Assembly (NCBI RefSeq): GCF_014201375.1
Contig: NZ_JACHDZ010000001.1
Location: 62,001 to 126,000 of the forward strand
Source: Tunturiibacter empetritectus
Lineage (GTDB): Bacteria > Acidobacteriota > Terriglobia > Terriglobales > Acidobacteriaceae
Reading direction: 5' to 3'
Length of the DNA stretch: 64,000 nucleotides
Position 1 is the stretch's first letter, and each line of letters begins with the position of its first letter. The notes beneath the pieces are model-generated. The model searched no databases and was not told the origin of the DNA. It saw only the letters and a program-made list of their open reading frames with translations. Shown here piece by piece: positions 11,798 to 18,926 of the stretch. The translations under genes and the position numbers were made by a program.

Positions 11798-12268
11798 ATG
11801 ATGACGATTGGCGAGAAGATTCAGACGGATATTGTGGTGGCGATGAAGGCGAAGGACGAGCATAAGCTGACGACGCTGCGGATGGTGAAGTCGGCGCTGA
11901 AGAATAAAGAGATCGACAAGCGGGAGAAGCTGACGGATGCGGAGGAGTCACAGATTCTGACGACGCTGATCAAGCAGCGGAGGGAGTCGGTGGAGTCGTT
12001 TACCAAGGGCGGACGGCCGGAGCTGGCGGAGAAGGAGCAGGCGGAGATTGGGATGATCGAAGGGTATCTGCCGCAGGCCGCGGGTGAGGATGTGATTCGC
12101 GGGGTGGTGCAGGGGGCGATTCATACGATGTCCGAGGGCGGTGCGAAGCCGACACCGAAGGAGATGGGCGCGGTGATGAAGGTGGTGCAGCAGCGGATTT
12201 TGGCGGATGGGCTGAGAGCGGATGGGAAGCTGGTCAGCGAGATCGTGAAGGCGGAGTTGGCGAAGTAG
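11798..12268 (+). CDS. yqeY: GatB/YqeY domain protein
   Basis: A 156-residue protein made only of the YqeY domain, the helical module also found at the C-terminus of GatB, the tRNA-dependent amidotransferase subunit. The N-terminal helical region (LRMVKSALKNKEIDKREKLTDAEE, KQRRESVESF, IGMIEGYLPQ) and the C-terminal tRNA-contacting-type domain (TPKEMGAVMKVVQQRI to KAELAK) are both intact. Stand-alone YqeY has no settled function. Two adjacent ATGs (11798, 11801) share the GATGAGGGA ribosome site. Its last 67 bases are echoed at 12914-12981, beyond a small membrane-protein gene. Confidence 0.92.
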   Translation: MMTIGEKIQTDIVVAMKAKDEHKLTTLRMVKSALKNKEIDKREKLTDAEESQILTTLIKQRRESVESFTKGGRPELAEKEQAEIGMIEGYLPQAAGEDVIRGVVQGAIHTMSEGGAKPTPKEMGAVMKVVQQRILADGLRADGKLVSEIVKAELAK

Positions 12269-12354: not shown

Positions 12355-12822
12355 ATGTCGTATGCTTCTTTCAAATCAGTTGAATCGGAAGAGATTTTGT
12401 CGCCGCGAATGCCTGCGGCCAAGGCGATGAGAGCTCAGGGGCTTATTGCCTGGTCGAGCCTCTTCTTCGTGCTTCTGCAAAGCATCTGCAGCTTCTTTGT
12501 CGCTCTGGATGGTCTGCGTGTCGTAATTGGAGTAGGGGCTTTGGCCGGCATCACACAGGCCGGGATGACCTGGAACAAAGTCCACACAGACTGGATTCGC
12601 GTTCCCATGATTGCGTTTGCCCTGGTGGGTGCGCTGCTGAACCTGGCGATTCTGCGGCGCGCTCGATATCTCCGCAGACGCCCGTCGTCGCTCTGGCGTC
12701 AAAGGCCTCTGACCCTGCGCAAGATTCGAATGGAACGCGTCCAGTTGGTTTTGTCACTGGTCACGCTGGCACTCATAGCGATTGAAGAGCTGACACACTT
12801 TCATACGTTTCATCGGATGTGA
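12355..12822 (+). CDS. small membrane protein of unknown function, between yqeY and its echo
   Basis: A 155-residue protein with about four hydrophobic segments (residues 29-50, 56-72, 84-100 and 130-147) and an Arg-rich loop between the last two. I do not recognise the family. It lies in the 645-base stretch that separates the true end of yqeY from a displaced copy of that end, so it looks like a passenger gene. No strong ribosome site precedes the ATG. A cytoplasmic-membrane location is the only prediction I can support. Confidence 0.6.
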   Translation: MSYASFKSVESEEILSPRMPAAKAMRAQGLIAWSSLFFVLLQSICSFFVALDGLRVVIGVGALAGITQAGMTWNKVHTDWIRVPMIAFALVGALLNLAILRRARYLRRRPSSLWRQRPLTLRKIRMERVQLVLSLVTLALIAIEELTHFHTFHRM

Positions 12823-12913
12823 TCTTCGTTTTGCGTGCGGGTTGGCGGCTGTATCTTCGCGACCAGTTGAACTTGCGTGGTGCCATGATGGGAGATCTTT
12901 GCGAGGGAGGCCG

Positions 12914-12981
12914 GCGGATGAGCTGCGCGCGGATGGTAGGCTCTGGTGAGCGAGATGGTGAAGGCGGAGCTGGCGAAATAA
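12914..12981 (+). pseudogene. displaced copy of the yqeY 3' end
   Basis: About 68 bases aligning to 12202-12268, the end of yqeY, with roughly 80% identity and a few small indels. The last 13 codons read LVSEMVKAELAK-stop against LVSEIVKAELAK-stop in the gene. Upstream frames are broken by stops. Weaker similarity can be traced a further 30 bases upstream. Confidence 0.85.
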
Positions 12982-15686: not shown

Positions 15687-16148
15687 GTGAGAATTGATGC
15701 GTTTTTGAGTCAGAGCCCTGTGGTGCAGACGATTCGTGCCGCTCGCCGGATGGAGTCTGCGGTCAATCAGGTTCTGCGGGGGCACGGCGTCACTCTGTTC
15801 GAGTCGCTGGTGTTGGCGGCGATTCTCTTCGAGAGAACAGGGGAGATACAGCCGTCGCATCTGGCGGAGACGTTTCAGACGACTCGAGGCAATATAAGCC
15901 ACTGCATCTCGTCGCTGGAGGCGAAGGGGCTGGTTCGCAGGAAGATGAATGTGGAAGATGCCCGTGCGCTTCGGTTGGTGCTATTGCCTGCGGGGCGGCG
16001 GCGGGCTGTCCGGGTGGCTGGGATTCTGGATGGGATGCAGAGGCGCTTCGAGGACAGGTTTGGGGCGGTGAAGCTAGAGGGAATGATAGGGCAGATGAGT
16101 GCGGTGGAGGAGGTCTGCTCGAGTCTGGCTCGGGCCGCAGAGTTGTGA
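15687..16148 (+). CDS. MarR-family transcriptional regulator
   Basis: A 153-residue winged-helix protein. The recognition region reads QPSHLAETFQTTRGNISHCISSLEAKGLVRRKMNVEDARALRLVLLPAGRR, a standard MarR helix-turn-helix and wing. The start is a GTG at 15687 with GAGGAGATC seven bases upstream. It is divergent from the TonB receptor with only 120 bases between, so control of that receptor or of itself is likely. An AT-rich patch around 15617-15655 (AACAATTGAT) is the best operator candidate. The ligand is not predictable. Confidence 0.85.
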   Translation: MRIDAFLSQSPVVQTIRAARRMESAVNQVLRGHGVTLFESLVLAAILFERTGEIQPSHLAETFQTTRGNISHCISSLEAKGLVRRKMNVEDARALRLVLLPAGRRRAVRVAGILDGMQRRFEDRFGAVKLEGMIGQMSAVEEVCSSLARAAEL

Positions 16149-16174: not shown

Positions 16175-17374
16175 TTAGCTTTTAGCAGAGAGGCCACTCT
16201 CCGCGTCGAACTGAGGGTTGACGTAGTCCCACTCTTCGGGATCCTCCAATCCGACTCTGATGGAGTCCTGTTTGAAGCCGTGGTGATCGAGCAGATCCAT
16301 CATCAGTCTTAGAAGCGAAGGATTTTTTGTGACGAAGTCGATTCCGGGCACCGGGGTAACAGGGCCTCGGGTGAGGCCGGCGAGAAATTGCATCAGTTCA
16401 CTTGTGGTTTGCAGCTTATCGGGATAGGTGGCGTAGTCGGTTGAGGCAGGAAGCTCCTGAATGATGATCGTCCTGGCGGTTCCGTCGACGATACATTCCA
16501 CTGGCGTCCATACCTTGCTGAAGCTAAGGTGCCCGAGCAGAACGTGGAAGTCTGCGTTGAGCTGCTCCATTTCTTTCGCGTGGTCGGCTTTTATCTTGTC
16601 CAGAAGCCTGTTTCTCTCGGGACTGTCGAAGGGCAGTTTGTAGAGTGGGAAGAATGCTTTGAGGTCGCGCTCGGCAATTTCGTAGAGGTTGCGGCAGAAG
16701 TCGGCACGCTGGCTGATCGCGGTGACGACGAGAGCTTTGTGGTTGTCCGGCACGATCCTCTCCTCGATAGTGAACGCGGAGACAAAACGGATGTAGGGCT
16801 GGGTAGGAAAGGTCTTTGCGAGAGCTAGGCACATGGTCTGTAGAAAGCCCTGCTTTGCGGCATCGCTGTCGCTAATGAGTGCGATCTTCTGCACGGAGAG
16901 AGGGCGCCACTGTGTCCGGCTTTTCTGGTTTGCATTTTGAACGATCTGCTGATCGATATGGACGGTAAAGTTTCCCATCACGACGCCGGGAGATTGATCT
17001 CCCAGGGTGGTGACGCCACCCATTTTCACTTTTTCGATGGGCGCTGCGGGGCCGGTTGGCGCGGACGAGCCATAGTCTCCGCCGACAAACCCTGGGGAAC
17101 CTGACCCCGCGGTGCGGATGTCGCCTATGGTCACGCTGCGGGATCTCCGGGCGGCGCTTCTGCTGACCAGGATGACGATAACCGCAGCAAGAAAAAGCCC
17201 GGCCGCAGCGATGCCGCCCCTGGTGAACTCCTGGCCGAAGATGGTGAACGCTACGTCGTTGCCGACGTGCTTCAGCGCCAGCACCGCACCTACGATAGCC
17301 AGCAGCGCAGCGATGAGGTATGCCCCAATAAGGGTCAGACGCCCATGATCCGATCTGTCCGGGTTTCCAGTCAT
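16175..17374 (-). CDS. membrane-anchored hypothetical protein with large cytoplasmic domain
   Basis: About 399 residues from the ATG at 17374, chosen because GAGCGAGGGA precedes it; an upstream TTG-type start would add 22 residues. Two transmembrane helices (about 12-34 and 54-72) are followed by Arg-rich sequence, a Gly-rich repetitive strand region (GDIRTAGSGSPGFVGGDYG, GDQSPGVVMGNFTVHI), and a 230-residue soluble domain beginning RPLSVQKIALISDSDAAKQGFL. I do not recognise the soluble domain. The middle resembles a short stacked-beta (GDxSPG) repeat. No neighbour suggests a pathway. Confidence 0.6.
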   Translation of the reverse strand: MTGNPDRSDHGRLTLIGAYLIAALLAIVGAVLALKHVGNDVAFTIFGQEFTRGGIAAAGLFLAAVIVILVSRSAARRSRSVTIGDIRTAGSGSPGFVGGDYGSSAPTGPAAPIEKVKMGGVTTLGDQSPGVVMGNFTVHIDQQIVQNANQKSRTQWRPLSVQKIALISDSDAAKQGFLQTMCLALAKTFPTQPYIRFVSAFTIEERIVPDNHKALVVTAISQRADFCRNLYEIAERDLKAFFPLYKLPFDSPERNRLLDKIKADHAKEMEQLNADFHVLLGHLSFSKVWTPVECIVDGTARTIIIQELPASTDYATYPDKLQTTSELMQFLAGLTRGPVTPVPGIDFVTKNPSLLRLMMDLLDHHGFKQDSIRVGLEDPEEWDYVNPQFDAESGLSAKS

Positions 17375-17531
17375 ATCTGACGGTCCCTCGCTCTTGTGGA
17401 AGATATTGGGAATGGTGTCAGGTGAAAGGAAAATTGGCAAATGCTTTTTTTTGAGGCCGCAGGTAAATTTGCAGTCTTTCGGGCACTACGGGAACGCATC
17501 CAAGGGCTCGGTGCCTGCTGGGAGAAGGCAG

Positions 17532-17559
17532 TTATTCCCGGATGATTTTGACGACGGCT
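17532..17559 (-). pseudogene. displaced RNase H gene end, echo A
   Basis: On the minus strand this encodes LAVVKIIRE-stop, against DGVFVKIIRE-stop at the true gene end. About 27 bases align with a few mismatches. It is the farther and more decayed of two echoes. Confidence 0.65.
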
Positions 17560-17721
17560 AGGTCTCAATACATGATTGAAGGATCAGAGATTCAGAAAAT
17601 CAAGTCAGCTGGACTTTGGCACGCGTTTGATGACCTGGGAGAGTTTAATCAAGCTGTTACCCATTGAATAACCAGCCATGGCTCGCCTAATGATGCGAAT
17701 CCCAAGTCAAACTGAGGACCG

Positions 17722-17761
17722 TTACTCGCGGATGATTTTTACGAAGACTCCGTCGCGGAGG
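17722..17761 (-). pseudogene. displaced RNase H gene end, echo B
   Basis: On the minus strand this encodes RDGVFVKIIRE-stop. It matches 18243-18282 of the RNase H gene with 36-37 of 40 bases identical, in the same orientation. The osmC gene lies between the two copies. Confidence 0.9.
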
Positions 17762-17811
17762 ATTTTCAGGCTCTTATCGACTGACGCGATGAATCCAGAA
17801 AGGAACGACCC

Positions 17812-18240
17812 ATGTTTGCCAAAACGGTTTGGAAAAAGGGGATGGAGTTTGAGGGGCACTCCGAAAGTGGCCATCATGTCGCCTTCGACGCTGGAGCTGC
17901 GCACGCCAACGGCCCTACCCCCATGGAGGCGGTTCTGATGGCCCTTTGCGCCTGCACGTCTGTCGACGTCGTGTCGATCCTCGAAAAGAAGCGCGAACCC
18001 CTGACCAGCCTTACTGTGTCTGCAACCGCTGAACAGGCCGCTGCGCCGCCCCGGGTGTTTACAAGGATCATGCTGACTTACCGGATTGGCGGTGCTGTCT
18101 CAAAGAAGGCTGCCGAAGACGCTGTTGAACTCTCGAAGAATAAGTACTGTTCGGTCTCGAAGATGCTGGAAAAGGCCGCCCAGATCGACTTCAGGATCGA
18201 ATACGCGAACGACTCCAGCGTGGACGTCTCGAGGAAATAG
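17812..18240 (+). CDS. OsmC/Ohr-family redox protein
   Basis: A 142-residue OsmC-fold protein. The two conserved redox cysteines are present: Cys48 in LCACTSVDVV and Cys113 in KYCSVSKML, both typical of the OsmC/YhfA branch that reduces organic peroxides or acts on persulfides as a domain-swapped dimer. An AAAGGAA ribosome site is eight bases before the ATG. The gene is opposite to, and ends two bases from, the RNase H gene, with the RNase H gene end repeated on its other side, so it looks like a single-gene insert. The exact substrate is not predictable. Confidence 0.9.
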   Translation: MFAKTVWKKGMEFEGHSESGHHVAFDAGAAHANGPTPMEAVLMALCACTSVDVVSILEKKREPLTSLTVSATAEQAAAPPRVFTRIMLTYRIGGAVSKKAAEDAVELSKNKYCSVSKMLEKAAQIDFRIEYANDSSVDVSRK

Positions 18241-18242
18241 GG

Positions 18243-18926
18243 TTATTCGCGGATGATTTTTACGAAGACGCCGTCGGGGAGGGTGGCGTTGCCGAGGATG
18301 TGGACGACGCCGTCCTTGGTGAAGCCGCGGAGCATGGTGTCGGCTTTGGCGTAGGGGTTGGGTGGGGCTTCGGATTTGTCGGGATATGGGTTGGCTTTGG
18401 GTGGGGCGGCGGGCGGGCTGGAGGTGCCGGCTCCGGCTGGGGTGTGGCGCATTCCGCGGTCCATGGCTTCGTTGGCTAGGCGGTCGGCGTCTTTGTTTTT
18501 GTGGCGTAGGGCGTGGGAGATCTCGAAGGCTTCGAGTTTGGCGATGCGGTTTCGGGCCTCCTGCCAGAGAGGTTTGAGGTCGGGGGAGTTGACCTTGTAC
18601 TTGCCCTGGATCTGTTTGACCATCAGCTCGGAGTCGGAGACGACGCGGAGGCGGGGGTGGTGGTGATCGAGGGCGTATTGCAGGCAGCCGAGGAGACCGG
18701 AGTACTCGGCGTAGTTGTTGGTGCGGAGGCCGAGGAATTCGGAGAGCTCGGCGAGGACGTTGCCGTGGTCGTCCTGGATGAGAGCGCCGTAGCCGGAGGG
18801 GCCGGGGTTGCCGCGGGCTCCGCCGTCGCAGTGGGCGTTGATCCAGGCGGTCTTTTTCGGGGCAGGTGGATTGGGGGTGGGGGCTTCGGAGAAGAGGCTG
18901 GGAGCGGTGGTCGGGCGGGGAGGCAT
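18243..18926 (-). CDS. RNase HI-like protein with C-terminal extension
   Basis: A 227-residue protein. Residues 25-160 are an RNase H fold with the full acidic set: Asp34 in CDGGARGNPGP, Glu74 in NNYAEYSG, Asp98 in VVSDSELMV, and Asp146/148 in HKNKDADRLAN. This version (YGALIQDDHGNVLAELSE, LMVKQIQGKYKV) is the RnhA/YpdQ-like branch that cleaves RNA in RNA/DNA hybrids. A Pro-rich linker leads to a 35-residue tail ending GVFVKIIRE. That tail is the part echoed twice downstream. A Pro-rich leader precedes the catalytic domain. Confidence 0.9.
   Translation of the reverse strand: MPPRPTTAPSLFSEAPTPNPPAPKKTAWINAHCDGGARGNPGPSGYGALIQDDHGNVLAELSEFLGLRTNNYAEYSGLLGCLQYALDHHHPRLRVVSDSELMVKQIQGKYKVNSPDLKPLWQEARNRIAKLEAFEISHALRHKNKDADRLANEAMDRGMRHTPAGAGTSSPPAAPPKANPYPDKSEAPPNPYAKADTMLRGFTKDGVVHILGNATLPDGVFVKIIRE

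Follow-up and report, generated by a model that had tools for sequence, protein, structure and literature searches.

Displaced ends of two core genes at a probable integrase-free hot spot of small-gene gain and loss in Tunturiibacter empetritectus

Elements mobilised by tyrosine recombinases integrate at the 3′ ends of genes, and their attL and attR boundaries leave an intact gene end, the insert and a displaced copy of that end. Sequential displacement of a different kind has been described for the type VI secretion system (T6SS) effector–immunity arrays of Vibrio cholerae, for which homology-facilitated illegitimate recombination has been proposed (Kirchberger 2017, PMC5361080). Hotspots that lack mobile elements and are driven by recombination in the flanking core genes are also established (Oliveira 2017, PMC5635113), whilst a search of the literature on Rhs displaced tips and on Edaphobacter gene transfer returned nothing usable. 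Here we describe a segment of the Tunturiibacter empetritectus genome (designated G000), contained in a window of 64,000 nucleotides (the whole stretch of DNA that was analysed), in which the ends of two core genes occur in displaced form. We consider it likely that this segment is an integrase-free hotspot, at which alternative versions have been stacked by recombination anchored in a flanking core gene.

The rnhA-type RNase H gene is found on the minus strand (18243..18926; 227 aa; PF13456 9.8e-21, PF00075 5.2e-10), was detected in 60 of the 62 genomes of the genus, and encodes a protein that terminates in ...DGVFVKIIRE-stop. Its last 40 nt (copy 1, 18243-18282, minus strand) recur in the same orientation at 17722..17761 (copy 2), with 37/40 positions identical; the next-best same-strand 40-mer matches in the window reach 26/40, which corresponds to a third copy, and then 25/40, the latter also being the chance ceiling when the adjacent 1 kb was simulated 3000 times with a first-order Markov model. 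Copy 2 probably reaches slightly further upstream, with gaps. Copy 3 (17532..17559, minus strand) is weak when scored as a 40-mer but clear over its 24-nt core (17532-17555), where it matches copy 1 at 21/24 positions against 17/24 for both the best other match in the window and the maximum of 3000 simulations; beyond this core, about 6 more nucleotides match across a 3-nt gap. The sole gene separating copies 1 and 2 is osmC (17812..18240, plus strand; 142 aa), which encodes a YhfA-type OsmC protein (PF02566 1.6e-19) whose nearest solved relative is 1ml8. Copies 2 and 3 are separated by a spacer of 159 bp (17562..17720, assigned to neither strand) that has no significant match elsewhere, no source having been found in its own genome or in the 62 genus genomes. 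A 60-aa open reading frame that ends in copy 2 (17722-17904) was rejected as a gene, as its coding is not conserved and, as read from the sequence, G063 carries an in-frame stop just upstream. A preliminary description of this DNA had proposed that the last 40 or so bases of rnhA recur at 17722-17761 with only osmC in between, and that a third, more decayed copy lies at 17532-17559; each of these proposals was borne out. When the 62 genomes were searched with a 29-nt gene-end pattern (up to 3 mismatches; a reversed-pattern control gave 0 matches), the pattern was found solely at rnhA ends and at copy 2 of G000, G063 and G064, the last two of which carry a homologous displaced copy at the same position.

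The context of copy 3 is provided by G031, which is the sister of G000 on the rpoB tree (98/98) and sits with it inside the clade that carries osmC. Genome G031 is without osmC and has one rnhA end only, the stop codon of which runs straight into the DNA that lies beyond copy 3 in the window, with 91% identity over 3.9 kb. This single-end junction proves copy 3 to be a genuine displaced rnhA end, derived from an allele to which orf421 was formerly attached. In alleles of the G031 type, this orphan gene (16175..17440, minus strand; 421 aa) is the cargo nearest to the rnhA end; its protein was found only in G000 and G031 among 398 genomes of the family, and gave no Pfam or NCBIfam match. The preliminary description had anticipated that a relative lacking osmC would show a single gene end and an uninterrupted junction, and G031 has precisely this arrangement; its junction beyond copy 3 also upholds the broader claim of a displaced gene end with cargo in between. 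The same stacked alleles could be read with the reverse polarity, whereby the order rnhA–osmC–displaced end–orf421 was in place before G000 and G031 diverged, and osmC was subsequently deleted from G031, by slippage or recombination at the direct repeats of the gene end, leaving a clean end once more. Short flanking direct repeats are known substrates for deletion (PMC2884548), and the rpoB tree infers osmC to be ancestral to the clade. Against this, an extra event is required to account for copy 2 and the spacer in G000, copy 3 still demands an earlier adjacency of rnhA and orf421, and the G031 rnhA end (GTC...TAG) is unlike copy 1 of G000 (GTA...TAA). Taking G031 as the original state needs fewer events than a later clean loss between the repeats, and we regard the reverse polarity as unlikely, albeit worth serious attention.

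The distribution of osmC shows that the cargo has a longer history than the window's own species. The gene lies between rnhA and marR in 9 of the 62 genus genomes, whilst in many others rnhA adjoins marR without osmC, the gene ends sometimes overlapping. All nine carriers fall in one region of the rpoB tree, together with the osmC-less G031, G028 and two others, and from this placement it follows that osmC predates the window's species and that several losses, replacements or transfers have occurred. In G028, the rnhA end nearly abuts a 155-aa cargo gene from the yqeY side of the segment, and osmC, marR and a TonB-receptor-like gene are gone. Along the window, the closest relative of G000 is G031 for the flanks on both sides. 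Within osmC, G014/G065 are the match for the 3′ part (96-98% identity) and G063/G064 for the 5′ part (91-93%), with a breakpoint near 18015-18018 (max-chi2 45, permutation p 1e-4); at the 80 informative sites, 34/38 favour G014/G065 on one side and 36/42 favour G063/G064 on the other. Two allele types are combined in the mosaic osmC gene of the window.

A comparable patchwork is seen in the gene at 15687..16148 (plus strand), which we take to be a marR-family regulator. Three allele types were distinguished: type I is found in G002, G014, G065, G066, G068 and G076 (81-100% among themselves); type II is found in G063/G064, with 67-70% identity to type I and 86% to the protein of the osmC-less G071; and type III is confined to G000 and G031, which are 95% identical to each other and have 60-68% amino acid identity to all others compared. 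The window thus carries a marR allele of a foreign type. At the rnhA end, three versions of the segment can be recognised, namely rnhA–osmC–marR type I, rnhA–glyoxalase–marR type II and rnhA–orf421–marR type III, and the suggestion of the preliminary description that the site might be a hot spot holding other cargo in other genomes is supported. Intact displaced rnhA ends occur only where a non-native marR of type II or III comes after osmC (G000, G063 and G064), an association that rests on two independent lineages. Past the displaced end, G063/G064 have a remnant of the start of a glyoxalase-like gene and then marR, both as they occur beyond rnhA in G071 (E 5.7e-7 for the glyoxalase match and 2.6e-30 for marR), whilst G000 has the orf421–marR allele as in G031. 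Since the downstream cargo matches G071 in one lineage and G031 in the other, the displaced end in both can be read as the left-hand border of a further rnhA–marR version, of another type, that lies behind the osmC version. The phylogeny of the alleles is incongruent with the genome tree, both for the marR types against rpoB and for the mosaic osmC. In G066, which has a type I marR, an exact 15-nt piece of the gene end (GACGGCGTCTTCGTC) is found at the homologous position, hinting that the original gain of osmC left the same kind of scar. The earlier idea that more than one event took place here is supported.

The opposite edge of the variable segment has the same anatomy. When 857 ORF ends were scanned for displaced copies, the search identified the conserved core gene at 11798..12268 (plus strand), presumably yqeY-like, whose own end (12229-12268) recurs 0.7 kb downstream as a displaced copy of about 69 nt (12913..12981, plus strand; 34/40 ungapped). 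The two are separated by a cargo gene of 155 aa (12355..12822, plus strand) that is found in 11 genomes of the clade. When gaps are allowed, the displaced yqeY end shares 84% identity with its own end and 87% with that of G076, which is intact; in both G000 and G031, the displaced copy scores higher against the G076 end than against the genome's own. The pattern is common to six genomes of one subclade. Across the genus, rnhA and yqeY border differing gene contents. A gene end has also been duplicated elsewhere in G063, where the last 40 nt of a gene (L114 12031-13401) recur exactly 44 nt downstream, as a fresh tandem duplication.

Another origin for such repeats would be that the rnhA end was duplicated locally in tandem and the copies then diverged, independently of the gain of osmC. 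The repeats are indeed direct and arranged in tandem, copy 2 of G000 matches its own end at 37/40 positions, and a perfect 44-bp gene-end duplication is present elsewhere in G063. However, what follows copy 3 is the sequence found after rnhA in G031, which refutes this origin for copy 3, and the G071-type cargo beyond the copy in G063 would be left unexplained. Moreover, displaced ends are often nearer to the gene ends of other genomes than to the resident one: over 40 nt, this holds for the displaced ends of G063 and G064, their own ends ranking only 29 and 20 of 52, respectively. For copies 2 and 3 of G000 the preference for other strains is marginal (copy 2 matches the intact G064 end at 38/40 positions, against the 37/40 for its own). 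The left half of copy 2 of G000 seems to resemble the G063 copy and the right half an intact G064-type end, and it is no simple descendant of copy 2 of G063/G064. Local duplication is thus extremely improbable. The preliminary description had held that its reading would fall if osmC were ancestral and the repeats had arisen by local tandem duplication; the first part stands to the extent that osmC, present in nine genomes, is older than the species, and the second does not, as the repeats are no local duplication.

The preliminary description had likened the locus to integration of the tyrosine-recombinase type, whilst pointing out that the insert is only 0.5 kb with no integrase. On such a reading, an integrase-dependent element, or a cassette mobilised in trans, placed osmC at an attB site in the rnhA 3′ end, duplicating that end, and later decayed until osmC was left. 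An intact end, one gene and a displaced end are the expected anatomy, and the genome contains 17 matches to the integrase domain (PF00589); yet the nearest of these is about 58 kb from the locus, with none closer, and inspection by eye of the ORFs listed within 3.2 kb of rnhA, on its downstream side, in 27 genomes of the genus revealed no integrase. The rnhA gene-end motif gave 0 matches in IMG/VR viral contigs and, away from rnhA itself, occurred in the 62 genomes at the displaced copies and nowhere else; no mobile form carrying the rnhA end was found in either collection. The repeats also lack an identical att core at both ends, being unequal in length and sequence (37/40 and 21/24) and with displaced ends that differ from the resident one, whilst the unrelated yqeY end behaves alike. 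Given also that the osmC and marR alleles are recombinant mosaics, such integration is not supported and we judge it improbable. It is very unlikely that end joining inserted foreign DNA where the rnhA end had suffered a staggered break, with fill-in generating a target duplication. The genome does encode Ku (PF02735 7.5e-51), and a fill-in duplication would bracket the insert, but copies made in this way would begin identical and be the resident's own, and the mosaic and foreign marR alleles indicate exchange between strains.

The stacking of versions is instead probably the work of homology-facilitated illegitimate recombination. The segment between yqeY and rnhA would act as a hot spot where small genes are gained and lost through recombination that needs no integrase. 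Incoming DNA carrying one version would meet a resident carrying another, and homology in the core gene would anchor one crossover; as this homology ends at the stop codon, the other joint would sometimes be made non-homologously, near that border. Both versions would then lie in tandem, with the last 25-70 bases of rnhA or yqeY from the second version left behind as a displaced end. The illegitimate joint, the order of events (including which version arrived last) and the donors are what we infer, and Ku-type end joining could also have been the activity that formed the joint. The reported rarity of homology-facilitated illegitimate recombination counts against the proposal, as do the spacer for which no source was found, the composite make-up of copy 2 of G000 and the small number of lineages (two) behind the marR association. 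Gene gain that is free of mobile genetic elements (MGEs) is usually traceless, since exchange by homology in the flanking genes leaves no seam; the imperfect exchanges proposed here left scars of 25-70 bases on both sides of the segment, and hence the events, the donor types and their order are partly readable. If such scars are common, they would allow recombination-driven gene accretion to be counted in any genome. It is possible, and we suggest it tentatively, that the 3′ ends of housekeeping genes act as general anchors for the tandem build-up of single genes by recombination alone, and that displaced ends could offer, across whole genomes, a fossil record of MGE-free cargo gain.

In comparison with known systems, the locus shares with tyrosine-recombinase elements the succession of intact gene end, insert and displaced end, and differs from them in having no recombinase, identical att core or mobile form, and in the use of two gene ends. 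The likeness to the V. cholerae T6SS arrays (PMC5361080) extends to a conserved upstream anchor behind which a new module is inserted, the older module and a 3′ fragment of the gene being pushed downstream, and to copies that do not cluster by genome; here, the older rnhA 3′ fragment and its cargo lie downstream of the new module as copy 3 with orf421, and as the G063/G064 copy with G071-type cargo. Unlike in those arrays, the anchor is a housekeeping gene, the cargo consists of single unrelated genes, and only the last 25-70 bases are displaced, at both edges of the segment. With the hotspots described by Oliveira 2017 (PMC5635113), the locus has in common its core-gene flanks, fast turnover of cargo, freedom from integrases and allele mosaics; whereas double homologous exchange was inferred for those hotspots, the scars at this locus show that two contents were added to each other and not swapped.
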